Shown one piece after another: positions 1,800-20,200 of a DNA stretch of 64,000 nt. The notes under the pieces were generated by a model. The model was not told where the DNA came from and did not search any database. It saw only the letters and a program-made list of their open reading frames with translations. Source of the DNA: Comamonadaceae bacterium (GTDB lineage Bacteria; Pseudomonadota; Gammaproteobacteria; Burkholderiales; Burkholderiaceae_C); the NCBI GenBank assembly GCA_015999985.1, contig JAECRA010000017.1:1-64000 (forward strand). The letters are read 5' to 3'. Within the stretch, counting starts at the first letter, position 1. Every line of letters starts with the position of its first letter. Position numbers and translations under genes: made by a program.

Positions 1800-1859
1800 T
1801 GCCGGACCGCTCCAAGATGAATAAACGCCCCCTCGGGGGCGCGTGGGGGCCATAACTCT

Positions 1860-4024: not shown

Positions 4025-4065
4025 AACGATTTCTCCTTAAGCGTTTGAATTCTCAGACTGCGATG

Positions 4066-4078
4066 ACCGATAATCGGA
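4066..4078. promoter_or_regulatory. IclR-type operator, single strong copy
   Basis: The dyad ACCGA-TAA-TCGGA lies between the divergent amidohydrolase (start 4024) and iclR (start 4109) genes. It matches the element repeated at three other promoters in the first 20 kb. A weaker version, TTGAA-TTC-TCAGA, lies at 4045-4057, with its centre exactly 21 bp away. This is the spacing of the stronger pairs, so a regulator dimer pair could bind here and control both genes. Confidence 0.6.
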
Positions 4079-4108
4079 CATCATCTGAACAGGCACCATC
4101 ACTGAGTC

Positions 4109-4825
4109 ATGCCCGAAATCTCCAAGACTGCCGATCAGGCTTTGGTCCTGCTGGCCTACATTGCCGAGCATGGTCCGCTGGGCACCACAGATCTGGCGCG
4201 CCTTCTCGATATGCATCGTACCGTGGTGCATCGCCTGTTGGCGACGCTCCAGGGGCGTGGTTTTGTACGGCGTGTGGAAGCGGGATACCTGCCAGGCACG
4301 GCGTTGTTGCACCTGGCGCAGTTTGTAGAGCCGGATCTGATTGCATCGGCCAAACCCTTTTTGGATTCGCTGGCTCAGGAGTTTGGTGAAACCTTCATCC
4401 TGACGGCTTTGCAGGGCAGCCATGAGGCCATTCAGATCGAGCAATCCGTGGGCGGCCACCATTTCATGCGCGTGCAGTTGACGCGTGGCTTTCGCCATCC
4501 GCTGTCCAAGGGCGCGAGCGGACGCTCCATCCTGGCTTTTTGCGACGCACCGTCTGTGTCCTATGCACTGCAACACTCTGAAGACCCGGACCGCTTGACC
4601 CAATTGCTGACTGAAGTGCGCGAATTGGGCTACGCCGTTTCGCACGACGAGTTGTCCCCTGGCGTGCACGGCGTGTCCGTGCCCATCATGCAAGGAAAGC
4701 AGCCCATTGCCTCCATCGGCGTGGTGTACCCTTCTGTCCGTGCGGAGACGGTAGACGTCTACGTCAAGGCGCTTAAAAAGGCCGCCGCGGCCATTGCCAA
4801 GGCCCTCAAGCAGAACGCCTCTTGA
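4109..4825 (+). CDS. IclR family transcriptional regulator
   Basis: A 238-residue IclR protein. The N-terminal winged helix-turn-helix (about residues 8-65) contains ADQALVLLAYIAEHGPLGTTDLARLLDMHRTVVHRLL and a wing with GFVRRVEAGYLPG. The C-terminal effector domain follows, with HPLSKGASGRSILAF and the late motif GYAVSHDELSPGVHGVSVPI. IclR proteins bind small carboxylic or aromatic effectors. It is transcribed away from the amidohydrolase operon, and the gap carries one strong and one weak copy of a dyad also found before 6674/6818, 11884 and 20067. It is therefore the obvious candidate master regulator of the 0-20 kb locus and probably controls itself. The effector is unknown. Confidence 0.93.
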   Translation: MPEISKTADQALVLLAYIAEHGPLGTTDLARLLDMHRTVVHRLLATLQGRGFVRRVEAGYLPGTALLHLAQFVEPDLIASAKPFLDSLAQEFGETFILTALQGSHEAIQIEQSVGGHHFMRVQLTRGFRHPLSKGASGRSILAFCDAPSVSYALQHSEDPDRLTQLLTEVRELGYAVSHDELSPGVHGVSVPIMQGKQPIASIGVVYPSVRAETVDVYVKALKKAAAAIAKALKQNAS

Positions 4826-4842
4826 TTCGACGCAATCAGGTG

Positions 4843-5055
4843 TCAAAACGGGCTTTCTACCGCCACGGTTTCCGGGAAATCCTTGGTGGCGTCTTCAATC
4901 GCCTTGCGCACGCGCTGCGCATCACCCACCTCATGCATCAGTAAAAGAGCCAGGCGCGCCAGAATTTGCGGCGTCGCTTCTTCGCCGGCGCGCGCCATGC
5001 GATAGCACAGCTCTGTATAGAGATCGTCAAGATCCTGGGGAGCAAGAGCGTTCAC
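4843..5055 (-). CDS. DUF2783 family small protein
   Basis: A 70-residue protein read from a GTG at 5055 that overlaps the stop of the FAD hydroxylase by 4 bp (GTGA). The sequence NALAPQDLDDLYTELCYRMA, followed by ATPQILARLALLLMHEVGD, fits the short DUF2783 family. That family is commonly encoded directly behind phenol/MhpA-type FAD monooxygenases. It has no signal peptide or membrane segment and looks all-helical. Tight coupling suggests a subunit or stability partner of the hydroxylase, but no activity is known to me. A start at 5121 would add an arginine-rich tail read out of the neighbouring gene and is rejected. Confidence 0.75.
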   Translation of the reverse strand: MNALAPQDLDDLYTELCYRMARAGEEATPQILARLALLLMHEVGDAQRVRKAIEDATKDFPETVAVESPF

Positions 5056-6674
5056 AGTGAGCCTCCTTGGCAGCAGAGTTCTATGGCTTGGGCTATGGCC
5101 GAGGCGTCCGCATGGCGCCAACGCGCCAGGACATTCCCGTCTGGACGAATCAGGTAGACCGTACCGGGCTGTGCTTCATAGCGTTGGCCGATCTCTGCCT
5201 TGGTGTCCAGGCTAAGCAATTTCATAGGCAATTTTTGTGCCGCAATCTGTTCTGCCAGCTCTGGTGCCGGGTCAAAGGCCATCACAGTGAACCCAGGGCC
5301 TATGTGCTGGCACAGATGGCCACCTTGCGGCATGGGCGCATCCAGAAACGCGAAGCCGCTGCGCGGGCCGGCGGTGAACGCCGCATCTTCAGCCGTCTGG
5401 TTGAGCGGTGAAGTCGGATACCCCACCGTGGTGCTCTGGCGTGGATCAATCAGGCGGCGCACCCATGGGTGGTCTGCCGCCAACCCCAACACGGCAGAAC
5501 GCATCAGCGCAAACGCCGGGGCCGGTGGTGCCATGAACTCGGCACTTTTGGATGCATGGCGCATGTTCTCGCGTGTGGCGAACACGCGCTCGGGCGTATA
5601 GGTATCCAGCAGTTTTTCAGAGGCCTGGCCTTTAAGCACGAAGGCAAGCTTCCACACCAGGTTATTGACGTCTTCCATGCCGGAGTTGAGGCCGCGCACG
5701 CCAAAGATGGGCACCAAATGAGCTGCATCGCCCGCAAGCAACACCCTGCCGTGTCTGTAGCTTTCAAGCGTCAGGCAACTGGCACGGTAGAGGCTGATCC
5801 ATACCGGCTCCCAGGGCGCATGTTCGCCAATAAGCTCCAGATGGCTGCGAATGCGCTCCAGCACGTTCTCTGGCTTGACGGCTTCTTCAGGGTCTTCGTC
5901 TTCACGCAGTTGATAGTCAAAGCGCCAAAGGTCGTCGCGGTGTTTGTGCAAAAGCAGTGTGGCACCCGGATTGGAGGGGGGGTCAAACCACGCGCGGCGC
6001 CCTGCAGGGAGCTCGCTCTTCATCTTGATGTCCGCAATGATGTACTGGCCGTCGTAGCGGGTACCCACAAATCGGGCGCCCAAGGCCTTTCGCACGGCGC
6101 TGTGGGCGCCGTCGGTGCCCACCACCCAGTCTGCGTTCAAAGTGTATGAACCTTCGGGGGTGGACACATCCAGCTCCACCCCGCCATCGACCTGTCGCAT
6201 GGCTTCCATGCGGTTTTGCCAGCGGATCTCAATCAGATCGGCGTAGTTGGCTCGGATCGAATCCAGCATGTACTGCTCTATGTAGCACTGCTGAATGTTC
6301 ACCAGTCTGGGAAACCGCGCGGCTGGATCCTGCGGCACCTCCAGATGCAGGACCTCCTCTGTGCGGTAGTAGCTCCAGCCCTCTGCCCAGGGCAGGCCCT
6401 GTCGCATGATGGGCTCAGCCACCCCGGTCTGCTCGAAGATCTCCAGCGTTCGAGACGTGACACATCCTGCGCGGCTGCCCAGGCAAACGCTGTCGTCCGC
6501 CTCCAGCACCACGCTGGCGATGCCCTGGCGCGCTAGACCCAGGGCGATAGCAAAGCCCACGGGCCCACCGCCCACCACCGCCACCTGGTGGCGAGCCTGA
6601 TCGCGCCCTTGCAGGGTCTTGGGGACTACGGGCGCGAATTTTTCGTAGTCGAAATATGAAACGAACTCCATCAA
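5052..6674 (-). CDS. FAD-dependent aromatic monooxygenase (MhpA/PheA type)
   Basis: A 540-residue class A flavoprotein hydroxylase. It has the N-terminal dinucleotide fold VAVVGGGPVGFAIALGLARQG with the acidic end VVLEADD, the DG motif region WVVGTDGAHSAVRKALGA, and the GD motif GRVLLAGDAAHLVPIFGVRGLNSGMEDVNNL. A C-terminal thioredoxin-like domain follows (about residues 410-540, GTVYLIRPDGNVLARW). It resembles MhpA and phenol 2-monooxygenase, which hydroxylate phenols or hydroxypyridines with NAD(P)H and oxygen. Two ATG codons lie in tandem at 6674 and 6671. It diverges from the VOC dioxygenase across a gap with a tandem operator. Hydroxylation followed by ring cleavage is the natural reading of the pair. 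Confidence 0.9.
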   Translation of the reverse strand: MMEFVSYFDYEKFAPVVPKTLQGRDQARHQVAVVGGGPVGFAIALGLARQGIASVVLEADDSVCLGSRAGCVTSRTLEIFEQTGVAEPIMRQGLPWAEGWSYYRTEEVLHLEVPQDPAARFPRLVNIQQCYIEQYMLDSIRANYADLIEIRWQNRMEAMRQVDGGVELDVSTPEGSYTLNADWVVGTDGAHSAVRKALGARFVGTRYDGQYIIADIKMKSELPAGRRAWFDPPSNPGATLLLHKHRDDLWRFDYQLREDEDPEEAVKPENVLERIRSHLELIGEHAPWEPVWISLYRASCLTLESYRHGRVLLAGDAAHLVPIFGVRGLNSGMEDVNNLVWKLAFVLKGQASEKLLDTYTPERVFATRENMRHASKSAEFMAPPAPAFALMRSAVLGLAADHPWVRRLIDPRQSTTVGYPTSPLNQTAEDAAFTAGPRSGFAFLDAPMPQGGHLCQHIGPGFTVMAFDPAPELAEQIAAQKLPMKLLSLDTKAEIGQRYEAQPGTVYLIRPDGNVLARWRHADASAIAQAIELCCQGGSL

Positions 6675-6711
6675 TGTCCTTGGCCGTTAAGAGAAATTGT
6701 GGCAGACTGAC

Positions 6712-6748
6712 GTCCTATATTTGAACAACATCATCCTGTATTCGGACA
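6712..6748. promoter_or_regulatory. Tandem IclR-type operators, 21 bp apart
   Basis: GTCCTATATTTGAACA (6712-6727) and ATCCTGTATTCGGACA (6733-6748) are direct copies of one 16-bp element. The core reads TCCNN-TAT-TYGRA, and the centres at 6719 and 6740 are two helical turns apart. The pair lies 38 bp before the hydroxylase start and 70 bp before the VOC gene, so it can control both divergent transcripts. Confidence 0.65.
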
Positions 6749-6817
6749 GTCTACCCAAGGCAACCGATCTTCGTCAACTATCTTCAACCTAATCTTCAAC
6801 CCCATTGCGAGGTCTTC

Positions 6818-7333
6818 ATGCAAACCCCTGAATTCAACGTGAACCGACTGAATCACGTCGCCTGGCGCTGCCGCGACGCAGAAGAAACCCGGGCCTTCTA
6901 TGAAGACCTGCTGGGTTTGCCGCTGGCGCACGTCGTGCGTGAAGACCGCGTCCCCTCCACCGGAGAAGAGAGTTCGTTCGCGCATCTCTTCTTCCAGATG
7001 CGTGACGGCTCCTATGTGGCCTTCTTCGACCTGGGTGACGGCCAAGGCGCCTCAGACCCCACCACGCCCGCCTGGGTCAACCATCTGGCCATGTCGGTCG
7101 GTTCTCGCGAAGAGCTGGAAAGCGCGCGTCAGCGTCTGCTGGACGCCGGCGTCAAGGTGATAGGCATCATCGATCACAGCTGGCTGCAATCCATTTATTT
7201 CCACGATCCCAATGGCCTGCGACTTGAATTGTCCTGGCAGGCCGGCGGGGCGGATGTTCTGGACGAATTCTCACGCAGCGCCCATTCCACACTGGCCCAA
7301 TGGACGGCGGACAAAGCTGAGGGACGCGCATGA
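6818..7333 (+). CDS. VOC family extradiol-type dioxygenase
   Basis: A 171-residue vicinal-oxygen-chelate protein made of two beta-alpha-beta-beta-beta modules. A complete 2-His-1-carboxylate triad is visible: His13 (RLNHVAWRC), His89 (WVNHLAMSV) and Glu137 (GLRLELSWQ). The late motif IYFHDPNGLRLEL is typical of type I extradiol dioxygenases, which cleave catechol-like rings beside the hydroxyl groups using Fe(II). It is short for a full catechol 2,3-dioxygenase (about 300 residues), so it belongs with the small one-domain-pair enzymes. The stop overlaps the start of the alpha/beta hydrolase by 4 bp, so the two products probably act consecutively. Confidence 0.85.
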   Translation: MQTPEFNVNRLNHVAWRCRDAEETRAFYEDLLGLPLAHVVREDRVPSTGEESSFAHLFFQMRDGSYVAFFDLGDGQGASDPTTPAWVNHLAMSVGSREELESARQRLLDAGVKVIGIIDHSWLQSIYFHDPNGLRLELSWQAGGADVLDEFSRSAHSTLAQWTADKAEGRA

Positions 7334-8460
7334 CCACCTTGACCAAAGAACTTGTGGTCCTGGATGTCAAACCAGGCATTTCCATGGATTCGCAGTCTGG
7401 CATTGCCCAGCTGTGGCCCAAAATTTATGGCGCTATGGTGCGGGCCAAGGACCGCAAAACGGCGGCGATCGTCATGCACCCGGCCAGCAACTTCATGGGG
7501 CACTATTTGCTGGAGCCTATGGCAGAGGCGGGTATCACCATGCTGGGGCTCAACTCCCGCTACGTGAACAATGATTCACAGCTCATCATGGAGCGGGTGC
7601 TGCAAGACCTGGGCGCCGGCGTGCGCTATCTGCGTGAGCAAGGCTACGAGAAGATCATCCTCATCGGCAATTCCGGCGGCGCCGCGCTCGCCTCTTATTA
7701 CCAGGCGCAGGCTGAGAAATTCACCGCAACCCATACGCCTGCGGGAGACCCCACAGGCTTGGTGGCAGAAGATCTGCCCCCGGTGGACGGCATTGTGCTC
7801 ACAGCGGCGCACCCCGGCCGCTCGCGTCTGTTTGCCGATTGGCTGGATCCCTCGGTGATCGATGAGCGCGACCCCTTCTCCGCTAACCCGGACCTGGACA
7901 TGTTCAACCCAGCCAATGGCCCTGCCTACAGCGCGGAATGGCTGACACGCTATAGAGCCGCGCAACTCGAACGCAATGCGCGCATCGAACAATGGGCACG
8001 TGCACAACTGGCCTACATCCGCGCCATGCCAGTACCCGTGCGCGATATGGCCTTCCTCATCTACCGCACAGCGGCTGACCCCAGGCATCTGGACCCCAGT
8101 CTGGACCCGAATGACCGGCCTGCAGGCAGCAATATCTGGGGCAACCCGCGTGAAGTCAACTATGGCGCCAACAACATTGGCCGCTACACCACACTGACGG
8201 CGTATTTGAGTCAGTGGGCGGAATGCACCAAAGCAGATGGCCCCAGTAACCTCATCGAGACCACCGTACCTGTGCTGTCCATTGAGCACACTGCTGATGC
8301 TTCAGTGGTGCCTGCAATGAACGCCTTGTGGAAGTCACGCCAGCCGGGCCGCATCTCGCGTCATGAGCTGAAAGGCGGTACCCACTATCTGGCTGGCCAG
8401 CCCGAGAAGGTCCGCGAGACGATAGACGCGATCCTCGACTGGATCGCACGGGCAGTCTGA
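7330..8460 (+). CDS. Alpha/beta hydrolase following the ring-cleavage enzyme
   Basis: A 376-residue alpha/beta hydrolase. The nucleophile elbow is IGNSGGAAL (Ser115). Likely acid and base residues are in IEHTADASV and the C-terminal GGTHYLAGQPEKV. The core carries an insert of roughly 100 residues after the elbow (PVDGIVLTAAHPGR onward) that includes the helix-rich AAQLERNARIEQWARAQLAYIRAM. Its ATG overlaps the dioxygenase stop (ATGA). By analogy with meta-cleavage pathways it would hydrolyse the ring-opened product (C-C bond, ester or amide), but the sequence is not a classic BphD/XylF type. An intrinsic terminator follows directly, so the transcript is a two-gene unit. Confidence 0.83.
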   Translation: MTTLTKELVVLDVKPGISMDSQSGIAQLWPKIYGAMVRAKDRKTAAIVMHPASNFMGHYLLEPMAEAGITMLGLNSRYVNNDSQLIMERVLQDLGAGVRYLREQGYEKIILIGNSGGAALASYYQAQAEKFTATHTPAGDPTGLVAEDLPPVDGIVLTAAHPGRSRLFADWLDPSVIDERDPFSANPDLDMFNPANGPAYSAEWLTRYRAAQLERNARIEQWARAQLAYIRAMPVPVRDMAFLIYRTAADPRHLDPSLDPNDRPAGSNIWGNPREVNYGANNIGRYTTLTAYLSQWAECTKADGPSNLIETTVPVLSIEHTADASVVPAMNALWKSRQPGRISRHELKGGTHYLAGQPEKVRETIDAILDWIARAV

Positions 8461-8481
8461 AAACTGCGCTGTAAAGAGATC

Positions 8482-8514
8482 AACGGGCCCCTCATGGGGC
8501 CCGTTTCTTTTGTT
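8482..8514 (+). terminator. Intrinsic terminator of the VOC-hydrolase operon
   Basis: AACGGGCCCC-TCAT-GGGGCCCGTT forms a perfect 10-bp stem with a 4-base loop, followed by a T-rich run (TTCTTTTGTT). It begins 22 bp behind the hydrolase stop codon. Confidence 0.9.
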
Positions 8515-8584
8515 GCGCACTGACTCTAGACGGCGGTTGGAACTTCCGCAAGCAAGCTGTGACTAAAACGCAAATGAGGTTAAC

Positions 8585-8601
8585 GCTGAACCTCGTTCAG
8601 C
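8585..8601. promoter_or_regulatory. Palindrome and promoter-like AT stretch before the ankyrin gene
   Basis: GCTGAAC-CTC-GTTCAGC is a perfect 7-bp dyad. It overlaps a second possible pairing, GAGGTT (8576-8581) with AACCTC (8589-8594). A TATAAC -10-like sequence follows at 8621-8626, about 20 bp before the ankyrin start at 8647. No good -35 element is visible, so the dyad may be an activator site. Its sequence differs from the IclR-type operators of the flanking operons. Confidence 0.4.
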
Positions 8602-8646
8602 GCACCTGCTTCTTGGTCTATATAACTCTCACTTAGTGGTTTCCCT

Positions 8647-10782
8647 ATGCCTGTAGTTACCCGTGCCGGGGCTCGGTCAAGTCAGAACGCGGCCCCTGAC
8701 AACACGCAGACATTTCCGGTGGAGGTGCCGCGAGCGCCTCGAAAACGCCAACACACCGAACAGCAGATCGACGTAGTCGCCACCGGGCTCAATCCGCAAC
8801 TTCAGTTGGGCCGGTCGCTGTCTCAGAACGACCTTGCTGACTTGGCCCCCGGGCTTGAGCAAGCTTCCAAACGGATCAATAGAAGCCATTCGGAAAACCC
8901 TCCCCGCCAGTTGGTCGCATTGAGTGAGCGGCCACGACCGAACGAACTCAACGCCCTCGACGGAAATGTGTTTAACAAGGCTCTGGTGAGGGGTGCGCTC
9001 ATATGCTTGATGGGCGAGACGGCTTACGAGGCGGGCGGAGGCGATGCAGGTATGCAGAGAATGCTCCATCAGAGGTGGGAGGACGGAAATACCGCATTGA
9101 CGCTGGCGGCTGAGAGCAACCAATGCTGGATCCTGGCAGCTCTGATCAGGCAGGGTGCCGACCCCACAGCTACCTGCGCAGACGGACTAAGCCCACTGAT
9201 GGTCGCGGCGGCTAAAGGCTACACCCAATGTGTTGAGACCTTGACAGGGGTGCTGGGTACTCCAGAACACGTCAATTGGGTCAACGCCGAGGGCGTCACC
9301 GCACTGTCAGTCGCTGCGCAAAGCGGCCACACCGGCTGTGTGAAGGAGTTGATCAGAGCCTTAGAAACCGTAGACCACATCAACCGGCCGAATATCTACG
9401 GCGTTACCCCGCTCATAGCCGCTGTGCACAACAATCACACTGACTGTGCCAAAGCGTTGGTTGGTGCATTGAGGACTGCAGAGCAGATCAATTGGGTAGA
9501 TGAGCAGGGTTTCACCGCACTGATCGTAGCGGCGCAGAAGGGTCACACTGACTGTGTCAGGGTGCTGATCGGCGCATTAAAGACAGCAGAGCAGATTAAC
9601 CGGGCCGGTCCGGAGGGGTTCACCGCATTGATAGCCGCGGCGCATGCTGGTCATGCTGACTGTGTCAGGGAGTTGGTTGACGCGCTGAAGACCGCGGATC
9701 AGATCAACCGGGCAGGCCCCCGAGGTTTCACCGCACTGATATGCGCGGCGCATGGCGGTCATGCTGACTGTGTCAGGCAGTTGATTGGCGCGTTAAAGAC
9801 CGCAGAGCAGATTAACCGGGCCGGTCCGCAAGGGTTCACCGCATTGATGGTCGCGGCGCATGGCGGCCATGCTGACTGTGTCAGGGAGTTCGTTGACGCG
9901 TTGAAGACCGCGGATCAGATCAACCGGGCAGGCCCCCGAGGTTTCACTGCACTGATATGCGCGGCTCAGAACGGTCATACTGACTGTGTCGTGCAACTGA
10001 GTGAGGCATTACAGACTGCAGAGCAGATCAACCGGGCCAACAATGATGGCTTCACCGCTCTGATGACTGCGGCTATGGAAGGCGAGGCAGGGTCAGTCCG
10101 TGCATTGATTCATCAACTGCAGCATGAAGGCGGATCGATCCATGCCTTAGGACCCGAGGGCCTTACCGCGCTGAGTGTGGCCAGCCAACTCCGTCAGATT
10201 GAAGTCGTCAACCTCCTTCTGGATGCGCTGCAAACGAACGGTCGCGCGCCGGACACCCCCAATGAAGTCGATCAGGAGACCGTCGCTATTGCGGGTCTCA
10301 ATGGTCACACTGGGGTTCTGTGTACCTGGCTTGCCTGCACCGGCCAAGTTGGACTCATAACCACCTTCTTCGAAGGACTTGGTGGTCACACTCCAAACCA
10401 GGCCGAGGCTGTTTTACTTCATGCAGCTGAATTAGGAAACGCACCCGCCGTGGCTTTGCTCCTGCGGCACGGAACGTATGCCCACGGCAGGCGCGCCGAT
10501 GGCGAGGGGGTCCTGGAGCTTGCGGCTGCGAAGGGTCATTGGCCGGTGCTGGAAGTTTGGAAGGCCGCAGGGCATGACTTGCCGCGTCGATTCATCATGG
10601 AGGCCATGCGTGCTTCAGGACTCTACCTGGAAACCCCGGAACAGCCTCTGAGCATCGAGTCCACGGATGTTGGTCAGGCCAACTTGCTGATAAAGGCGAT
10701 TTCAAATGAATGGCCGCATTTGGCCGAAGCGCTGATTCAGATGAAGACGCAAGACCTGTTTGAAAAGATGTCGCTCGCTTAA
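8647..10782 (+). CDS. Ankyrin-repeat protein
   Basis: A 711-residue protein without signal peptide or membrane segment. Residues 1-110 are low in hydrophobics and rich in Ser, Arg, Gln and Pro. From about residue 135 the ankyrin signature (GFTALIVAAQKGHTDCVRVL and variants) recurs in units of 36 residues, longer than the usual 33, with linkers ALKTAEQINRAGP. Several units are almost identical, also in DNA. A degenerate solenoid (about 490-620) and a unique C-terminus follow. Ankyrin stacks bind proteins. The disordered N-terminus and long solenoid resemble secreted effectors of host-associated bacteria, but I see no secretion system here and no PIP/hrp box upstream. It interrupts an otherwise metabolic locus. 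Confidence 0.85.
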   Translation: MPVVTRAGARSSQNAAPDNTQTFPVEVPRAPRKRQHTEQQIDVVATGLNPQLQLGRSLSQNDLADLAPGLEQASKRINRSHSENPPRQLVALSERPRPNELNALDGNVFNKALVRGALICLMGETAYEAGGGDAGMQRMLHQRWEDGNTALTLAAESNQCWILAALIRQGADPTATCADGLSPLMVAAAKGYTQCVETLTGVLGTPEHVNWVNAEGVTALSVAAQSGHTGCVKELIRALETVDHINRPNIYGVTPLIAAVHNNHTDCAKALVGALRTAEQINWVDEQGFTALIVAAQKGHTDCVRVLIGALKTAEQINRAGPEGFTALIAAAHAGHADCVRELVDALKTADQINRAGPRGFTALICAAHGGHADCVRQLIGALKTAEQINRAGPQGFTALMVAAHGGHADCVREFVDALKTADQINRAGPRGFTALICAAQNGHTDCVVQLSEALQTAEQINRANNDGFTALMTAAMEGEAGSVRALIHQLQHEGGSIHALGPEGLTALSVASQLRQIEVVNLLLDALQTNGRAPDTPNEVDQETVAIAGLNGHTGVLCTWLACTGQVGLITTFFEGLGGHTPNQAEAVLLHAAELGNAPAVALLLRHGTYAHGRRADGEGVLELAAAKGHWPVLEVWKAAGHDLPRRFIMEAMRASGLYLETPEQPLSIESTDVGQANLLIKAISNEWPHLAEALIQMKTQDLFEKMSLA
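9481..10020 (+). repeat. 108-bp tandem repeats inside the ankyrin gene
   Basis: The phrase GAGCAGATYAACC or its variant GATCAGATCAACC recurs at 9481, 9589, 9697, 9805, 9913 and 10021, a period of exactly 108 bp (36 codons). Units starting at 9697 and 9913 are nearly identical over long stretches, as are those at 9589 and 9805. This alternating pattern suggests duplication of a 216-bp double unit. Confidence 0.85.
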
Positions 10783-10903
10783 GTGCACTTCATCAGGTTG
10801 ATGGCGTGCTTGAGCTAGACGCAATGGTCCATCGTGGTGCTCCGAGCTACCTCATTATCGGCGCGATAGCTCATGCCTCCACCGCAGGAGGAGGCGTTTC
10901 GTC

Positions 10904-11884
10904 TCAGTCCACGTGTATGTTCTTGGCCTTGATGAGTGCTGCCCACCGCACGCGCTCCGTCTCGGCAAATCGTTCAAACTCTGCAGTGGACTTGCTTGTG
11001 ACTGGCTCTAGTCCCATAGCCCGCAATTTTTGCGAAACATCAAGGCTCTCAATGGCATCACGAATGCCAGCGAAGAGTTTTTCCACGATGGCGGGCGGTG
11101 TGCCTTTTGCCACCGCAAACCCCATCCAGGAAATAGCCGAAAAGTTCGGAAAGCCCTGCTCTGCGATCGTGGGCACTTCTGGCGCTACGGCGGCACGCGC
11201 AGGCGTTGAGATGCCCAGCGCTCGCAGCTTGCCCCCTTTGATCTGTGGCAGCGCCGTGGGAGATTCCAGCATCGCCACATCTATGACGCCCGCCAGCAGG
11301 TCCGCCACCGCAGGGCCCGAACCCCGGTAGGCCACATGCTTGATGTCGACCTTGGCTTGGTCTGCAAGGCCTTCCATCGACATGTGGTGAATGGTTCCTA
11401 TGCCGGCAGAGCCATATGACAAGCGGCCAGGGTTCTTGCGCGCCGCTTCTATGAAATCAGCCAAGTTCTTATAAGGGCTATCAAGCTTCACTGCGATGAG
11501 AAGCGGGGTGCGCACGATCTGCGTCAGTGGCAGCAGTGTTTTTTCAGGCAAAGTGATGGGTTTGCTTTGCAACGCAGCAGCGACGGCCAGTGTGTCTGCC
11601 GTTGCCGCCAGCAAGGTATAGCCATCAGCCGGAGCAGTAGCCACCGCGTGAGCGCCGATCAATGTGCCGGCGCCGGGTTTGTTGTCCATCACCACCGGTT
11701 GGCTCCAATCCGTGCTCAGCTTGTTTCCCACCATGCGCGCAATCACGTCTACGCCACCCCCTGGAGGAAACGGCACGATGACCTTGACGGGCTTGTTCGG
11801 AAAATTGTCCTGCGCAAAGCTGGGAGCTTGCGTGACAAGCAGCGCGCAGATGAGCAAGGAGCGTAAGGCGTGGATCGACTTCAT
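10904..11884 (-). CDS. Bug-family (TctC-like) periplasmic solute receptor
   Basis: A 326-residue receptor of the tripartite tricarboxylate transporter family. A signal peptide (MKSIHALRSLLICALLVTQA, cleavage after PSFA) precedes the hallmark NFPNKPVKVIVPFPPGGGVDVIARM. The later motifs YGSAGIGTIHHM and VAYRGSGPAVADLLAGVIDVAM line the carboxylate pocket. I moved the start to the ATG at 11884 because only this gives a proper signal peptide; the start at 11935 adds 17 unrelated residues. Bug receptors bind aromatic or aliphatic carboxylates. No TctA/TctB membrane genes are adjacent. A tandem IclR-type operator lies 80 bp upstream, tying it to the locus as its probable uptake or sensing component. 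Confidence 0.92.
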   Translation of the reverse strand: MKSIHALRSLLICALLVTQAPSFAQDNFPNKPVKVIVPFPPGGGVDVIARMVGNKLSTDWSQPVVMDNKPGAGTLIGAHAVATAPADGYTLLAATADTLAVAAALQSKPITLPEKTLLPLTQIVRTPLLIAVKLDSPYKNLADFIEAARKNPGRLSYGSAGIGTIHHMSMEGLADQAKVDIKHVAYRGSGPAVADLLAGVIDVAMLESPTALPQIKGGKLRALGISTPARAAVAPEVPTIAEQGFPNFSAISWMGFAVAKGTPPAIVEKLFAGIRDAIESLDVSQKLRAMGLEPVTSKSTAEFERFAETERVRWAALIKAKNIHVD

Positions 11885-11963
11885 CGTGGGTACCTCAAAA
11901 TAGTGGCGGTCACACATCCGCCAAAAAGCCAGCAAGCCAGCCTTCGGCGGGGACTATCTATAT

Positions 11964-11997
11964 TCCGAATATCGGACATGAGAATGCGATATTCGGA
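11964..11997. promoter_or_regulatory. Tandem IclR-type operators before a Bug receptor gene
   Basis: TCCGA-ATA-TCGGA (11964-11976) is a perfect 5-bp dyad. TGCGA-TAT-TCGGA (11985-11997) differs at one arm position. Their centres, 11970 and 11991, are 21 bp apart, as at the hydroxylase/dioxygenase gap and before 20067. The first copy is the best match to the consensus in the window. A further half-site-like GCGATATTGACA follows near 12020, out of phase. Confidence 0.68.
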
Positions 11998-12133
11998 TAA
12001 TCAATATTGCCATGCTTAGGCGATATTGACAAGGAAAATGGACAGGCGCGTTGAGCTAAAAACAATGCACCGCTTGAGGGATGCCGCTTGCCATGACGCA
12101 CCTTATTTCGAGACTGCGCAGACACTCACCACT

Positions 12134-12892: not shown

Positions 12893-12914
12893 AGTGACCT
12901 TTTAATTTTTAGGT

Positions 12915-13454
12915 TCAACTGCCGTTTCTAGGTTGTATGTGCAAGTGGCAGCAGCCCTGGCCGCCCGGTTCCCAGGTATCGTTCCTGATGGCAAAGCCAG
13001 CACCTTCAAACAAGCCTACATCGCCGCCGCCCGCAATCCGAAGCAGCACCTGCATGCGCTCTGGCGAGAGCTTGGCTTCTTCGTAGGCTTCCTTGATGGG
13101 GCACGTATGGAACTTCAGATCCAACTTGCTGGCGTCGCAGTGCGTCTCGATTTCAAAGAGTCCGCCATGGTCTGGAAGAAAGTCGATGAAGCGGTCGCGC
13201 AGCGCGGGCATGTTGCTCGGGGCGCAGTCTGAGAAAAAGCGCTTGCCCGCCCCCTCACTGCGCTTGTGCATGACGCGCTTCAGCAACGCCTCGGCACGCT
13301 CCAGTCCCATCTCGGGTTCCAGCTCGTCTAGAAGCGCCGCCATCAACATGGCGCGGCTCTTCAGCAGGTTCTTCACCTGCATGCGCAAATCAGACACCGC
13401 CGGATCGACGGGATTTTTTTTGGCTTGATCTGCTTGGGCTTGATCTGGCTGCAT
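12915..13454 (-). CDS. Possible L-2-amino-thiazoline-4-carboxylate hydrolase family protein
   Basis: A 179-residue soluble protein from the ATG at 13454, 20 bp behind the ThDP gene. A polar N-terminus (QPDQAQADQAKKNPVDP) leads to a helical region and then FHTCPIKEAYEEAKLSPERM, LLRIAGGGDVGLFEGAGF and GGQGCCHLHI. The late Cys, Asp and His pattern resembles the ATC hydrolase family (PF14196 as I remember it), whose founding member hydrolyses a thiazoline ring to S- or N-carbamoylcysteine. Assignment rests on that weak pattern and is uncertain. If right, it gives the operon a second ring- or amidine-opening hydrolase. A longer reading frame to 13712 lies inside the ThDP gene and is not real. Confidence 0.5.
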   Translation of the reverse strand: MQPDQAQADQAKKNPVDPAVSDLRMQVKNLLKSRAMLMAALLDELEPEMGLERAEALLKRVMHKRSEGAGKRFFSDCAPSNMPALRDRFIDFLPDHGGLFEIETHCDASKLDLKFHTCPIKEAYEEAKLSPERMQVLLRIAGGGDVGLFEGAGFAIRNDTWEPGGQGCCHLHIQPRNGS

Positions 13455-13474
13455 GAATGCTCCGGTGTCGAATT

Positions 13475-15151: not shown

Positions 15152-15187
15152 ACCAAAATTCCTTACTCTCGTTTTCTATTTCATGAC

Positions 15188-15270
15188 ACCCGCCGCCTGC
15201 CTAAAGAAACTCCCTCTCCCTCTGGGAGAGGGAGGGGCGGGGCCGGCCAACCGGTGAGGGCAAGCGGCGT
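15188..15270. repeat. Dispersed palindromic repeat, GGGAGAGGG type
   Basis: The gap between the ThDP and aldehyde dehydrogenase genes contains CCCTCTCCCTCTGGGAGAGGG-like pairing, then GGGGCGGGGCCGG and CCGGTGAGGGCAAGCGGCG. A related element lies at 50024-50085. These are common intergenic repeats in beta- and gammaproteobacteria and may act as an RNA hairpin between the two genes. Confidence 0.7.
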
Positions 15271-15312
15271 GCCTTGAGGTACGAACTCTCAATAGAACGT
15301 GAACCGCTCTAC

Positions 15313-16749
15313 CTATGACTTCTGCATGCTGATAACGTGGGGCCGTGTGACCGACTTCAAGCCTTCCACACCAAACTCCACCCCCCAGCCTGAACGCTTG
15401 CTGCCACCGAACGGAACCAGGGGATGAATCACCCCATGCTGATTGATCCATACGGTGCCCGCCTGCAAACGCATCGCCACCGCACGCGCCTGTTCGGCAT
15501 CGCGCGACCAAACCGAAGCACCCAGCCCCACGTCCAGGCGATTGGCTCTGGCCACGACATCGTCCACGTCCGTATAGCGAATGATGGGTAGCACCGGGCC
15601 GAACTGCTCTTCATCGACCAGTGGATTGCCGTCCTTGATATCCGTCACCAGCGTCAGTGGATAAAAGTTGCCAGGCCCGTCCGATGGCTGACCACCACAG
15701 ACGATGGTCGCGCCCGCTGAGCGGGCCGCCTCTACCAGCCTGGCGACCTTGTCGAACTGCATGCGGTTCTGGATGGGACCCATGGCCGTGCCCGGCAACA
15801 TGCCGTCGCCCATGGGCATGGCATTTGCAAGCTTGGCCAGCGCGGAAACAATCTGATCATGCAGCGAGTCCGGCACGTACAGCCTCTTCACACAGGCGCA
15901 GGTCTGCCCCATGTTCAGAAACGCTCCCCAGAAGAGCCCCATCGCAATCGATTCAGGATCTGCGTCAGCCAAGACGATGGCCGCATCGTTGCCTCCCAGT
16001 TCCAGCGTCGTCGGCGTGAGGTTTCGGGCCGCCGCTGCAGCCACCTTGGAGCCAGTGGACGCCGATCCGGTGAACATGATCTTGCCGATCCGTGGATCTT
16101 CTGAAAGCCAGCCACCCACATCGCCAAAGCCGCTGACCGTATTGAGCACGCCTGGTGGCAGCACTTCGGCGATGAGCCTGAACAGCTCCAATGAGCAGGC
16201 GCTGGTGTACTCAGAGGGCTTGATGACCACCGTATTGCCCATTCGCAAGGAGGGCACGATTTGCCACATCGCAATCAGCAGTGGCCAATTCCAGGGGGCG
16301 ATTGCTGCCACCACACCGTACGGCTGGCGATGCACCTCATCGCGCCGCTGCTCGTTCTCGAACGCGACTTCCACAGGCACGTCGATCGCTGCCGTGGCAC
16401 GCGTCCAGCCTTCGCAGCCCATGAGTTCAAAACGCGAACCAGGAACAGAGCCTCGGCCATCTCCGCCCAACGGTTTGCCCTGTTCGCGCGTGACCCACTC
16501 CGCAAGCGGCTCAGCATGGGCCTTGATGGCATCGGCGATCTTGATCAGGTAGGTACGGCGCTGCGCATCGGTCAGTGCCGCCCAGGCGGGCTGGGCTTTC
16601 TGCGCGGTGGCTATCGCCTGGTCCACCTCTTCGCGGGTGCTGTAGGCGACCCTGGCGATGACCTCACCTGTGGCTGGATTGTGTGAATCAAAAGTCTTGC
16701 CGGCCGCCACTGGCTGGCCGTTCGCGGTATTCAGGAATGTCTGCATCAC
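15313..16749 (-). CDS. Aldehyde dehydrogenase (NAD(P)+-dependent)
   Basis: A 478-residue ALDH. Visible motifs are PWNWPL (oxyanion Asn), VIKPSEYTSAC, the cofactor loop FTGSASTGSKV, the general base in LELGGNDAAIVLADAD, the catalytic cysteine in NMGQTCACVKRLYV and the C-terminal EEQFGPVLPIIRY and PFGGSKRSGWGVEFG. It oxidises an aldehyde to the acid. Its place directly upstream of the ThDP enzyme suggests it removes the aldehyde made by decarboxylation. The gene has its own 215-bp upstream gap with a nested palindrome and a long repeat but no visible IclR-type site, so this sub-operon may be controlled differently. Confidence 0.93.
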   Translation of the reverse strand: MMQTFLNTANGQPVAAGKTFDSHNPATGEVIARVAYSTREEVDQAIATAQKAQPAWAALTDAQRRTYLIKIADAIKAHAEPLAEWVTREQGKPLGGDGRGSVPGSRFELMGCEGWTRATAAIDVPVEVAFENEQRRDEVHRQPYGVVAAIAPWNWPLLIAMWQIVPSLRMGNTVVIKPSEYTSACSLELFRLIAEVLPPGVLNTVSGFGDVGGWLSEDPRIGKIMFTGSASTGSKVAAAAARNLTPTTLELGGNDAAIVLADADPESIAMGLFWGAFLNMGQTCACVKRLYVPDSLHDQIVSALAKLANAMPMGDGMLPGTAMGPIQNRMQFDKVARLVEAARSAGATIVCGGQPSDGPGNFYPLTLVTDIKDGNPLVDEEQFGPVLPIIRYTDVDDVVARANRLDVGLGASVWSRDAEQARAVAMRLQAGTVWINQHGVIHPLVPFGGSKRSGWGVEFGVEGLKSVTRPHVISMQKS

Positions 16750-16818
16750 TTGCCTCTTTTCGTTCTCGATCGTTCCCGACCTTTTATGAATTCATTTGCA
16801 TTCGAGCTGAGGCTCTAT

Positions 16819-16858
16819 GGTTTCTCTCTAGCGGCTAGTTCAGTTCGAACTAGAAACC
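16819..16858. promoter_or_regulatory. Nested palindromes upstream of the aldehyde dehydrogenase operon
   Basis: CTAGTTC-N5-GAACTAG (16835-16853) is a perfect 7-bp dyad. It is enclosed by GGTTTCT (16819-16825) and AGAAACC (16852-16858), and CTAG-CGG-CTAG precedes it. It lies 70-110 bp before the dehydrogenase start at 16749, a fitting place for an operator. An RNA hairpin is the alternative. Confidence 0.45.
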
Positions 16859-16860
16859 AC

Positions 16861-16945
16861 CGTTCGGGCTGAGCTTGTCGAAGCCTTGTACCGCGCTTCG
16901 ACAAGCCTGTCCTGAGCGCTGTCGAAGGGCTCAGCGTGAACTGTC
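16861..16945. repeat. Long intergenic inverted repeat, TGTCGAAGGGCTCAG type
   Basis: CGTTCGGGCTGAGCTTGTCG and the complementary TGTCGAAGGGCTCAGCGTGA bound the element. Inner CTTCGACAAGCCTGTCCTGA repeats the same words, giving stacked stems. This is a widespread repeat in Burkholderiales and related genera. A degraded copy lies at 52372-52419. It separates the aldehyde dehydrogenase operon from the NmrA-like gene and could end transcription from upstream. Confidence 0.75.
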
Positions 16946-16964
16946 GGTACGTTAGAAGGTCCCA

Positions 16965-17855
16965 TCAACAAGTCCCGCCAACTTTCGAGATCACTTCGGC
17001 CAAATAGCTCTGAACGGTGCGCGGAGCTCTCCCCAGCACGCTCTGAAAATCCGGGCTAACCTTCTCTCCCACGCCTTCGCGCAAGACAGTGAGCACCTCT
17101 GTCTGATGCCGCAAGGTGAAGTCATCAGCCCCGCCTGCCCGGGCTCTGGCCATGGCTTCAGAGATATCGAGAGGCTTGTAGCGAATGGGCTTACCCAACA
17201 TCTGCACCAGAAGACCTGCAATCTCTTCGCCACCCAGCGCTTCGGGGCCGGTGACTTCGATCGTCTGCGGAGTTGATCTGGCAGCCATCGCATGCGCGCA
17301 AGCGGCCGCAATGTCTCGTATGTCTGCAAAAGCCACACGAGCAGGACCTATCCCCAGAGAGAACGTGTCGCCGTTTGACAACTCTGTGCCTATGCGGCCC
17401 AGTATTCCCTGCAGGAAGGCATTGGGCCGGATGCATATACATTCCGGCCCACCCGATTTCTGCACCGCACGCATGGTGGCTTCGACCTGAGCATGGGCGG
17501 CGCCCACCGTGGTCATGCGGCCCTCGACCATGGTCCATGCCGAGCCAGACAGTTTGACGATACGCCGCACGCCCGCGTCTGCAGCGGCCTGCACGGCGTG
17601 GCACTGCCAGGCCGCCATCTCTGGGTGAACGGGGGAGGATATGAAGGCTACATCCACCCCTTGCATGGCAGACACAATCGAGGCCGGCGCATCAAACTCG
17701 CCGATCACCGGCATTACTTCCGAGGGCCACATGGGCGCCGCCCTCTGTGCATCGCGCACCAAGCCAGCGACCGCCAAACCGCGATCAGACAGCTCACGCA
17801 CCACGAGGCTGCCTATGCGCCCCGTCGCGCCGAGAACAAGGTGGCGCTCGCTCAT
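16965..17855 (-). CDS. NmrA-like NAD(P)-binding protein (atypical SDR)
   Basis: A 296-residue protein that begins with the atypical-SDR motif LVLGATGRIGSLVVRELSDRG, continues with VDVAFISSPVHPEMAAWQCHAVQAA and ends with the DISEAMARARAGGADDF region typical of the NmrA/SDR_a5 group. The canonical Tyr-X3-Lys pair is not evident, as in many NmrA proteins, which either reduce quinone-like substrates or only sense NAD(P). Its ATG overlaps the stop of the upstream Bug receptor by 4 bp, placing it in the transcript that starts at the M29-like gene. The role within the locus is unknown. Confidence 0.85.
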   Translation of the reverse strand: MSERHLVLGATGRIGSLVVRELSDRGLAVAGLVRDAQRAAPMWPSEVMPVIGEFDAPASIVSAMQGVDVAFISSPVHPEMAAWQCHAVQAAADAGVRRIVKLSGSAWTMVEGRMTTVGAAHAQVEATMRAVQKSGGPECICIRPNAFLQGILGRIGTELSNGDTFSLGIGPARVAFADIRDIAAACAHAMAARSTPQTIEVTGPEALGGEEIAGLLVQMLGKPIRYKPLDISEAMARARAGGADDFTLRHQTEVLTVLREGVGEKVSPDFQSVLGRAPRTVQSYLAEVISKVGGTC

Positions 17856-18832
17856 TCCAGCACAAGATTCAGTCGCTTCACCACCGGACTCCAGATCTTC
17901 ATCTCGTCCGCGATCTTCTGCGAAAACTTGTCCGCTGTGCCGCCCGCCGGCGTGTTGCCGGTACCACGCAGAAACTTATCTACGGAGTCTATGGCCAGGG
18001 TTTTCTGAAACTCGTTGTTCAGGCGCGTCACCACGTCCGCAGGCATGCCGGCCGGCCCGAAGATGCCTATATAGCCTTCACTTTCGATGCCGGAGACGCC
18101 TTGTTCAGTGATGGTGGGCACATCAGGCATGGCCGCATTGCGTGTATGCGAAGCCACCCCGATAGGCTTGACTTGCTTGGTGCTGATCGCCGAGATCGCG
18201 GTTCCGAAACCGTCGAACATGATGGGCACCTGGCCGCCAATGAGATCCTGGCCCGCTTGTGCACTCCCTTTGTAGGGCACATGCGTCATCGTCACTCCGG
18301 TCTTCTGTGAGAACAACTCGCCGAGCAAATGCGCGGTAGAACCTGTGCCAATGGAGGCGTAGCTGAGCTTGCCGGGGTTGGCCTTGCCGTAAGCCACCAG
18401 CTCTTGCACGTTGTTGAATGGCTGCGCAGAGTTCGCAATCAATACAACGCCGGAGCCCACGATCTGGAAGATGGGCGTGAACTTCGACGCATCGTAGGAC
18501 AGCTTGGGACGCAGAAGCGGGTTCTGCACATGGGTCAGGATGTTGGTCAGCAGCAGCGTGTACCCATCAGGTGCGGCGCGCTGGACTTCCAGCGCGCCAA
18601 TCCCGGTGTTGGCGCCCGGCTTCGTGTCGATGATGACCGGCACGCCCATGGATTCCGACAAATGCATACCCAGCCTGCGCCCAATCACCTCGGCCTGCCC
18701 GCCTGGACTGAAGGGCACCACGATGCGGATAGGCTTGCCCGGAGTGGGGTAAGTCTGGGCACTGACCTGAAACGAAACGCCTGCGGCCAGAGCCGTAAGC
18801 GAGATGGCGAAGGCGCGTCGAGTAGATAGCAT
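17852..18832 (-). CDS. Bug-family (TctC-like) periplasmic solute receptor
   Basis: A 326-residue receptor with an N-terminal signal peptide (RRAFAISLTALAAGVSFQVSA, cleaved before QTYPTPGKP), then GKPIRIVVPFSPGGQAEVIGRR and the pocket motifs ASIGTGSTAHLLGELF and HVPYKGSAQAGQDLIGGQV. It is the second Bug receptor in the locus and sits between the M29-like enzyme (35 bp upstream) and the NmrA-like gene (4-bp overlap), so all three form one operon. A carboxylate ligand is expected from the family. No membrane components are nearby, so it must share a TctAB pair from elsewhere or act as a sensor. Confidence 0.92.
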   Translation of the reverse strand: MLSTRRAFAISLTALAAGVSFQVSAQTYPTPGKPIRIVVPFSPGGQAEVIGRRLGMHLSESMGVPVIIDTKPGANTGIGALEVQRAAPDGYTLLLTNILTHVQNPLLRPKLSYDASKFTPIFQIVGSGVVLIANSAQPFNNVQELVAYGKANPGKLSYASIGTGSTAHLLGELFSQKTGVTMTHVPYKGSAQAGQDLIGGQVPIMFDGFGTAISAISTKQVKPIGVASHTRNAAMPDVPTITEQGVSGIESEGYIGIFGPAGMPADVVTRLNNEFQKTLAIDSVDKFLRGTGNTPAGGTADKFSQKIADEMKIWSPVVKRLNLVLE

Positions 18833-18867
18833 CGTGGACTCCTGAACAGGTTATGGGTGAGGTTCTT

Positions 18868-20067
18868 CTAGGACACTAAGGAAATTTGTCGGCCTCGCTC
18901 GATCAGCGGCTGACCTTCGACTTCCAGGGTGGCATTGCTCCAGGTCAGCCAGCGATGGAAACTGGACCGGAAATGCCCACCCGACAACACGTTGTCGCCC
19001 AGAATCAGGCGAACCACCCCGGCGCCAAAGCCGTAATGGGGCAAGAAGGAACTGCCCGGAACGGGCGTGAGCAGCGGGTTGCAACCGATGATGATTTCAC
19101 CCAACATGTCCTTGTCGCCAGACTCGGAAGCCCACGCCTGATCCAGCGCCTTTTGATCGCCTTCGGTCTGGACTGAGGTCACCTTGCCATCGCGAAATTC
19201 GAAAGCCAGGCCGGCTTTGGTGAATGGATGGGTGTCAAAGCCGCGTCCCAGTGCCATGGCTTCGCCATCGGTTCGGCTGGGAAACACCACACGCCCTTGC
19301 GCGCTGTGTGGCTCGGGAATGAATCGGAAGCTGCCGACAGGCACCTCTTCTTCGCGATCACGCCCGCTTGAAAAGCGCGCCATGCGCTCCCGTGAGGCGT
19401 CTCCATAGTTCGTGTGAAAGCTGGAGGTGGCACGAAACCGCAGGTCGGTTCCGGCATCGTCCGTGAGCCTCAGTTCACGACCACTGAGCATCTGGACCAT
19501 CCGCTCCATCATGCGGCGCATCCAGTCATAGTCGAGATCGATGATGGCTTTTTCATTGACCCGGTCATGCAACAGGTTCACCGGGTGCGACGGATCAGGG
19601 AAGCGAGGATCTTGAAACCAGTGCAAATGAGCCGATCGGACATTCTTGCAAGCATGGACGACCTCGTCCGATTGCGAGGTGGAGACCGTTCGATACGCCC
19701 GGCGCCTGTCGTTCATGAGCAATATGAAGACGTCGGCGCAAGAGAACAGCTGCTTCATGGCATCTGCCTCTGCTTGGTCCAGTGCGCTATCCGGATGGCG
19801 TCCGCTGGCCAGACGCATTCCACCCACTGCGGGAGACCAGTGAAGAATGCTGGCCATTTCAATCGCCCGGGCCCGCTGGATTTCGCAGCGCACCGCTTCC
19901 AGCGCAGCACCGCCGTAGTAAGGGTCGGCAGAAATGATCACCCGTTCAGCCGGTTGTACGGCGAGGATGCGCCGCACCACAGTCTGAGCAATGGCCTCCC
20001 AGTCAATGACGTGCGTGGGCGCCAGGCCTTGATGCTCGGGCAACGGAAACGGATCGAAAACCGTCAT
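18868..20067 (-). CDS. M29 aminopeptidase / 2,5-dihydroxypyridine dioxygenase (NicX)-like protein
   Basis: A 399-residue protein whose C-terminal half follows the M29 fold shared by thermostable aminopeptidases and the iron dioxygenase NicX: LGEIIIGCNP (Glu324), SSFLPHYGFGAGV (His344), SFHRWLTW (His371) and ATLEVEGQPLIERGR. In both known groups the second histidine begins an H-X-D metal motif. Here it is H-R-W (Trp373), so one ligand is missing or replaced. The N-terminal half, with ISADPYYGGAALEAVR, is the usual nucleotide-like alpha/beta domain. It is the first gene behind a tandem IclR-type operator. A ring-cleaving dioxygenase or amide hydrolase role is possible, but the altered site prevents a firm call. 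Confidence 0.72.
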   Translation of the reverse strand: MTVFDPFPLPEHQGLAPTHVIDWEAIAQTVVRRILAVQPAERVIISADPYYGGAALEAVRCEIQRARAIEMASILHWSPAVGGMRLASGRHPDSALDQAEADAMKQLFSCADVFILLMNDRRRAYRTVSTSQSDEVVHACKNVRSAHLHWFQDPRFPDPSHPVNLLHDRVNEKAIIDLDYDWMRRMMERMVQMLSGRELRLTDDAGTDLRFRATSSFHTNYGDASRERMARFSSGRDREEEVPVGSFRFIPEPHSAQGRVVFPSRTDGEAMALGRGFDTHPFTKAGLAFEFRDGKVTSVQTEGDQKALDQAWASESGDKDMLGEIIIGCNPLLTPVPGSSFLPHYGFGAGVVRLILGDNVLSGGHFRSSFHRWLTWSNATLEVEGQPLIERGRQISLVS

Positions 20068-20094
20068 TTGGAAGCACCCTTCTATGATCTAGTA

Positions 20095-20131
20095 GTCCGA
20101 TATTTGAAATCAGTTGTCCGATATTAGGTCA
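20095..20131. promoter_or_regulatory. Tandem IclR-type operators before the M29-like operon
   Basis: GTCCGATATTTGAAAT (20095-20110) and GTCCGATATTAGGTCA (20116-20131) share GTCCGATATT. Their centres are 21 bp apart, the same as at the two other paired sites. The pair starts 28 bp before the coding start at 20067. ATTCCGAAC follows at 20136, a further half-site. Confidence 0.66.
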
Positions 20132-20164
20132 TTACATTCCGAACTGCAATAGGTGAGATTTCCT

Positions 20165-20200
20165 AGGAGGCTGTCAGACTTGGAGCGCCGACAGCCTCCT
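20165..20200. repeat. Perfect 11-bp stem-loop of unknown role
   Basis: AGGAGGCTGTC (20165-20175) and GACAGCCTCCT (20190-20200) pair perfectly around a 14-base loop. No T-run follows on either strand, so it is a poor terminator. It could be a remnant insertion-sequence end or an RNA hairpin. Confidence 0.5.

Follow-up and report, generated by a model that had tools for sequence, protein, structure and literature searches.

The IclR family of transcriptional regulators includes repressors, activators and dual regulators, and its members attach to palindromic sites either as dimers or as tetramers (PMC8222616). For 94 of the 181 IclR orthologous groups, this comparative study predicts tandem palindromes whose centres lie 18-22 nt from each other, which are read as tetramer binding (Suvorova and Gelfand 2021, PMC8222616); the same text describes the TGT-11-ACA class, with the consensus TGTYCRYW3RYGRACA and a subgroup that is rich in aromatic-compound catabolism genes, and quotes the operator of PobR from Acinetobacter baylyi as TTGTCCGATSATCGGACAR. 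Here, we analyse a stretch of 64,000 nucleotides from a Comamonadaceae bacterium (GenBank assembly GCA_015999985.1, contig JAECRA010000017.1, positions 1 to 64,000), which we refer to as “the window”, where palindromes of this type are located in four gaps between the genes of a catabolic locus that includes an iclR gene. The gaps are numbered 1 to 4, and their sites and genes are listed in Table 1.

We have computed the positions of the sites, their spacing and their conservation, and have found no comparable pair elsewhere in the scanned genome. Taken together with the comparison to other species, which supports it well, this points to a real regulatory system of the published kind, i.e. one where an IclR protein very probably controls scattered ring-degradation genes.

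Paired putative operator sites in the window

An initial annotation of the window had placed the dyad TCCGA-N3-TCGGA, with a centre that is usually TAT, at seven coordinates in promoter gaps. Words of this kind do occur at all seven, but as a loose consensus: the exact dyad is found at one of them (11964-11976), and the other six deviate by one to three core bases, i.e. by one each at 4066 and 11985, by two each at 6734, 20096 and 20117, and by three at 6713. The centre triplet is indeed TAT in five of the seven sites, all four gaps lie between main genes, and the three pairs that were said to be exactly 21 bp apart (6713/6734, 11964/11985 and 20096/20117) are so. Gap 3 is located upstream of one gene only, the Bug receptor gene at 10904-11935, because the SDR gene on the other side of the gap is also on the minus strand. 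If the weak copy at 4045 (four mismatches) is counted, the 21-bp distance between site starts holds for every one of the four gaps.

The signal is the pairing, not the single motif. Single sites are not enriched: the window holds 20 matches with at most two mismatches versus 25.75 expected, and the bacterium's own genome holds 73 places with at most one mismatch versus 206 for the reversed control pattern; as these counts lie below chance in both, we have rejected single-motif enrichment as evidence. A lone site also occurs at 42379, inside the open reading frame 42035-42742. Of pairs with at most five mismatches in total, the window holds four with the 21-bp spacing, each located in one of the four gaps, versus 17 across the 47 other spacings between 13 and 60, a count that uses the motif of the initial annotation itself and is thus circular.

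A second measure was obtained with an outside matrix, a symmetric 17-bp single-site model without spacing information, made from seven 38-bp stretches from outside Ottowia (alignment A2): the iclR gaps of loci L012, L013, L014, L017 and L019, and the VOC gaps of L012 and L015. These training pairs were found with the motif of the initial annotation at 21 bp or were taken directly from the VOC gaps; in the VOC gap of L012, the second site has one good half only. When the 63,963 window positions are ranked at spacing 21, the four gaps come first to fourth (11964, then 20096, 6713 and 4045), and the mean of the best four pairs is higher at this spacing than at any other of the 44 spacings from 17 to 60; when all 44 spacings are pooled, seven pairs score above gap 2 and eight above gap 1. 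The fourth-ranked pair reaches at most 4.7 in 200 dinucleotide shuffles versus 16.8 (16.76) for the lowest of the four gaps; a best pair equal to or above the weakest gap (16.8) occurs in one of the 200 shuffles, and one as good as gap 4 in none.

The score of the gap-1 pair is carried by the site at 4066 alone (+22.9), with the 4045 copy giving -6.2. A full pair at gap 1 was rejected on account of the four mismatches of the 4045 copy, its score and its absence from Ottowia thiooxydans, although a half-site is possible: the right half of the copy, TCAGAC (4053-4058), aligns to a model built from other species (R1, see below). Judged from the letters, gap 1 is one good site (4066) with at most a half-site beside it. 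Of the weak copy proposed for this gap by the initial annotation, what stands is its start, 21 bp from 4066, and perhaps its half-site; its role as a full operator is unsupported, in view of its background score and of the repeat element that lies there in O. thiooxydans.

Conservation in Ottowia thiooxydans

The locus was compared with that of O. thiooxydans DSM 14619 (L011), where the regulator is 90% identical; the same locus occurs on contig C19 of a further genome of the genus, G274, taken as O. thiooxydans. The pairs of gaps 2, 3 and 4 are kept at exactly 21 bp upstream of the orthologous genes, and the single site 4066 of gap 1 is intact. Over the aligned gaps, with gap 3 truncated at 12050, gap 4 at 20160 and the 4045 copy counted as flank, the changed bases are 2 of 91 in the operators, 6 of 24 in the spacers and 72 of 308 in the flanks (Fisher P 3.6e-7, operators versus flanks); the operators are islands of conservation against this species.

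The place of the 4045 copy is occupied in O. thiooxydans by a 165-bp element with inverted ends (G274:C19:28899-29063; iclR gap of L011 and L064). This repeat element, with the inverted ends AGGAGGCTGTCGGACTTGG, occurs in forms of ~165 bp and 89 bp and is scattered, with 29 ends in the own genome and 44 in G274 (at most one mismatch); a 36-bp hairpin-like remnant of it is located at 20165-20200 of the window, 35 bp beyond the gap-4 pair. The interval between the hydrolase and the Bug receptor gene is ~22.5 kb in O. thiooxydans versus 2.4 kb in the window; in the window it holds a 711-aa protein with many ankyrin repeats (8647-10782), to which the ~22.5-kb interval has no match at E 1e-8.

Distribution of the pairs in the genome

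Two pair models were used for genome-wide scans: R1 was built without Ottowia, and R2 from all 14 pairs, those of the window included (consensus nGTCCGATAATCGGAC...TCCGATATTCGGACA). Scored candidates were 150 of 333 (R1) and 150 of 361 (R2) in the own genome (4.3 Mb, assembly 79% complete), and 150 of 570 (R2) in G274; the results of the scans apply to these.

In the own genome, every place with E < 0.01 under R2 lies in the four gaps, the next place being C31:56321 with E 0.95; as R2 contains the window pairs, only the absence of other places is informative. R1 lists only gaps 3 and 1 at E up to 10, and neither scan yields a convincing pair elsewhere. The initial annotation had named many equally good tandem sites at unrelated genes as the finding that would speak against a single regulon, and in these scans such sites were not found. 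In G274, R2 ranks gaps 4, 2 and 3 highest; the places next below are matches on the reverse strand or partial ones, located in gaps 4, 1 and 3. A further match was seen on contig C108 of genome G276 (locus L066, E 0.6).

Pairs in distant relatives

A site with at most one mismatch occurs near the iclR start (-400 to +60) in 6 of 38 IclR loci, and in five of these six the best partner among 96 offsets is located at +21, the sixth being O. thiooxydans. Three of the five (L013, L014 and L017) are recorded as Actinomycetota or subgroups, and L017 and L019, having the same site letters and similar helix-turn-helix (HTH) domains, are not independent. The 21-bp pair precedes a related iclR gene in L013 and L014, loci that have no further gene in common with the window at E 1e-8, and also in L017, L019 and L090.

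We have also compared 44 spacings in 52 relatives, which are not mutually independent, with the pairs of each locus removed from the matrix: the best spacing is 21 in 11 of them and 20 in 12, i.e. 20 or 21 in 23 of the 52 versus ~2.4 expected with even spacings, with 8 of the 23 scoring under 10. Among nine plasmid records with an IclR relative, we analysed five that were chosen without regard to sites; on the Gemmobacter fulvus plasmid, the 21-bp pair is the top pair of the locus and lies in the gap before iclR. The Rhizobium loci L087 and L088 have their two best 21-bp pairs in the VOC and iclR gaps, with a 38-bp spacing scoring higher over the whole locus and a 41-bp spacing higher in the iclR gap. 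Three Sinomonas relatives (L023-L025) have their best tandem pair upstream of iclR at 20 bp and with more A+T-rich letters, e.g. TTCTATAATCGGA and TCCCAATATCGAA. A family-level search matched the regulator at E 1e-20 in 10 of 250 genomes, i.e. the own genome and nine others at 33-36% identity; none of the nine has its best pair at 21 bp, the top score being 12.1 at 19 bp in L002 and the other eight reaching at most 5.8.

In two metagenome-assembled genomes of Burkholderiales (L012 and L015), the M29-like gene forms one contiguous block with the enamidase-like, iclR, VOC and hydrolase genes, and therefore this gene, located ~14 kb from iclR in the window, would belong with the other genes of the regulon. 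Before the VOC gene, L015 carries a 21-bp pair with 0 and 3 mismatches, and L012 a good site with a half-site 21 bp on. The conservation upstream of orthologues that the initial annotation expected is thus seen for gaps 2, 3 and 4 in O. thiooxydans and for the iclR gene in some distant relatives, but not for the pair that it assumed at gap 1.

Genes of the locus

The 4109-4825 protein passes the domain criteria of the IclR family, with 45.3 bits for HTH_IclR (cut-off 22) and 70.3 bits for IclR_C (cut-off 24). By sequence similarity, the amidohydrolase is related to enamidase (2VUN) over its full length, with residues 1-382 of 399 aligned to 1-380 of 386 (E 2.2e-84). Enamidase is part of nicotinate fermentation, and because of this relationship the breakdown of an N-heterocycle is a plausible role for the cluster. 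Two more enamidase-like amidohydrolases, 38-39% identical, are encoded in the own genome (G000:C106:45114-46253 and G000:C36:6418-7557); among 369 genomes of the class, four match at E 1e-60, the own genome and three others at 37-39%. In the sequences of solved structures, no match at E 0.001 was found for the M29-like protein, singly or as a profile, or for the alpha/beta hydrolase.

Table 1. Operator sites and genes of the locus. Ranks and scores refer to the outside matrix; changes are relative to O. thiooxydans.
Feature	Coordinates	Strand	Remarks
Single IclR-type operator TGACCGATAATCGGACA, divergent gap 1, amidohydrolase (-) / iclR (+)	4064..4080		Matrix score 22.9; 0/13 core bases changed
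Weak copy, gap 1, perhaps right half-site TCAGAC; overlaps possible iclR -35 hexamer TTGAAT	4045..4057		4 mismatches; score -6.2
Operator pair 6713/6734, 21 bp, divergent gap 2, FAD hydroxylase (-) / VOC (+)	6711..6748		Matrix rank 3; 0/26 operator bases changed
Operator pair 11964/11985, 21 bp, gap 3, upstream of Bug receptor (-)	11962..11999		Matrix rank 1; 1/26 changed
Operator pair 20096/20117, 21 bp, gap 4, upstream of M29-like/Bug/NmrA (-)	20094..20131		Matrix rank 2; 1/26 changed
Cys/Met-metabolism pyridoxal phosphate (PLP) enzyme, likely in amidohydrolase operon	603..1853	-
Ornithine cyclodeaminase / mu-crystallin family protein, likely in amidohydrolase operon	1860..2807	-
Amidohydrolase, enamidase relative, first gene of likely leftward operon	2825..4024	-	2vun ENAMIDASE E 2.2e-84
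iclR gene, 238 aa, HTH_IclR + IclR_C, proposed binder	4109..4825	+	Pfam; PDB matches include TtgV 2xrn
DUF2783 protein, downstream of FAD hydroxylase	4843..5121	-
Flavin adenine dinucleotide (FAD)-dependent hydroxylase	5052..6674	-	NCBIfam PRK08132
VOC/glyoxalase-dioxygenase family protein	6818..7333	+
Alpha/beta hydrolase	7330..8460	+
Bug/TctC substrate-binding receptor	10904..11935	-
NmrA-like protein	16965..17855	-
Second Bug/TctC receptor	17852..18832	-
M29-like protein	18868..20067	-	Weak Pfam M29 match E 9.3e-4, below cut-off

A stretch of the locus that encodes an aldehyde dehydrogenase, a thiamine pyrophosphate (TPP) enzyme, an ATC-hydrolase-like protein and the SDR is free of sites, as the window scan gives no operator match there up to E 10; it may be transcribed by read-through from gap 4. 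The protein at 12915-13436, beside the TPP enzyme and the aldehyde dehydrogenase, is a member of the L-2-amino-thiazoline-4-carboxylic acid (ATC) hydrolase family, and together with its neighbours it possibly forms the lower part of the same pathway. In the open-licence library that was searched, we found no published work on the cluster (enamidase, nicotinate degradation, DUF2783, Ottowia and IclR combined), and a search with the operator letters gave nothing on this subject.

Proposed mode of regulation and its alternatives

The sites are in all likelihood the operators of the 4109-4825 IclR protein, with a dimer on each palindrome, paired dimers at three gaps and four promoter regions under control, most likely by repression. 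Each site would be a palindrome of the type TGTCCGAT-N-ATCGGACA, held by one dimer; at gaps 2, 3 and 4, because the two palindromes lie 21 bp, i.e. two helix turns, apart, the two dimers would share one face of the DNA, binding jointly as a dimer of dimers. Gap 1, with its one good site and perhaps a half-site, would control iclR itself and the divergent enamidase-like operon; gap 2 the hydroxylase-DUF2783 and VOC-hydrolase genes; gap 3 the Bug receptor; and gap 4 the M29-like/Bug/NmrA genes. Repression would most likely last until a pathway intermediate binds the C-terminal domain. The identity of the binding protein, its tetrameric state, the direction of regulation (repression, not activation) and the inducer are inferred. 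The single IclR regulon that the initial annotation drew from the 21-bp-spaced operators is favoured by the spacing, the conservation and the lack of scattered equals.

The positions of the pairs relative to promoter-like boxes weakly suit repression. At gaps 2 and 3, the pair is located just downstream of minus-strand boxes (TTGACG-18-TAGACT and TTGTCA-18-AATATT), and the promoter-like match of iclR (TTGAAT-18-GATAAT) has boxes that overlap site 4066 and the 4045 copy, its first hexamer coinciding with the latter; this argument is weak because promoter matches occur near their chance number. PobR and PcaU are activators, and it is conceivable, if rather unlikely, that the window protein resembles them, the effector-bound form recruiting polymerase to the structural promoters and repressing its own gene only. 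The motif is nearly that of PobR, in a subgroup rich in aromatic-catabolism regulons, and the family includes activators and dual regulators besides repressors (PMC8222616); against this, the minus-strand matches of gaps 2 and 3 put the pair just past the second hexamer (6748 and 12003), in a roadblock-like position, which is weak evidence.

Binding by another IclR paralogue encoded elsewhere in the genome, with the local iclR merely one of its targets, is improbable: further IclR candidates do exist (31 first-look candidates in one search and 33 in another), but only one match in the own genome passed E 1e-20, and the 21-bp pair stands before related iclR genes in the five loci named above, in two of which no other gene is shared. 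Still less credible is the view that the dyads arose by chance or from base composition and were merely selected by eye; the low single-site counts and the imperfection of most sites would fit it, and it does stand for the 4045 copy, but for gaps 2, 3 and 4 and site 4066 the matrix from other species, the shuffles, the cross-species conservation and the spacing speak against it.

Several findings weigh against control of the four gaps by the local IclR protein through 21-bp pairs, apart from the paralogue candidates. Gap 1 is without a full partner, and the promoter-like matches number 6 versus 4.7 expected, i.e. near chance. The training pairs of the outside matrix were picked by the motif of the initial annotation and the 21-bp spacing, though the matrix itself is spacing-free. 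Gaps 2 and 4 are not listed by R1 in the genome-wide scan; within the window R1 gives 11 bits to gap 4 and only 4.5 to gap 2, which has 3.6 in O. thiooxydans. The genome scans scored part of their candidates in a partly complete assembly. The within-genus comparison rests on one sister species and is thus a single comparison, because among the 29 genomes of the genus only two, the own genome and G274, carry the regulator at E 1e-20. Among the distant relatives, 29 of the 52 have their best pair at a spacing other than 20 or 21 (22 of these 29 score under 10); the best spacing is 22 bp in R. etli, evidently at a strong site (3962) between the VOC and fumarylacetoacetate hydrolase genes, the Rhodococcus plasmid locus has no good pair, and the iclR gap of L015 holds no site or pair.

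The regulation by the IclR protein that we propose would make a testable regulon of a cluster without an assigned substrate, and would group genes over ~20 kb (enamidase-like, hydroxylase, VOC-family and M29-like genes and two Bug receptors) into one probable pathway; that the enamidase-like, VOC-family and M29-like genes form one regulon is plausible from the comparison of loci. With its near-fixed spacing, the system lends itself to the study of dimer-dimer cooperativity in IclR proteins. More tentatively, with the odds somewhat against it, this may be an IclR subfamily shared among Betaproteobacteria, Alphaproteobacteria and Actinomycetota, with a near-rigid 21-bp twin operator whose targets are swapped by lineage; in Ottowia, where the regulator's own gap has one full site, autoregulation and the control of the structural genes would then differ in cooperativity, in an enamidase-containing N-heterocycle pathway not yet described.

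Comparison with known IclR systems

TtgV controls efflux, and its operator letters probably differ from those of the window. This IclR-family regulator is cited for its dimer/tetramer structure in PMC8222616, and the window protein matches its structure 2xrn with E 4.4e-11 in a search of PDB sequences. The PobR operator TTGTCCGATSATCGGACAR, as quoted there, almost equals the consensus found here; PobR, however, controls 4-hydroxybenzoate genes, unlike the gene set of the window, and its site is described as having three boxes with a direct half-site repeat, whereas gaps 2-4 of the window have two full palindromes 21 bp apart. A possible case of the three-box layout of PcaU and PobR is gap 1, where the site at 4066 and TCAGAC form a palindrome plus half-site.

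Compared by eye, the window consensus fits the TGTYCRYW3RYGRACA of the TGT-11-ACA class, with single sites deviating by 0-3 core bases, and the 21-bp spacing at gaps 2, 3 and 4 and in relatives fits the 18-22 nt of the tandem operators, which gap 1 does not. The gene set differs from those of the tandem operators in PMC8222616, whose main text, as available, does not name Ottowia. As far as that source goes, what is new is this member and its gene set, the tandem architecture being already published for the family (PMC8222616).

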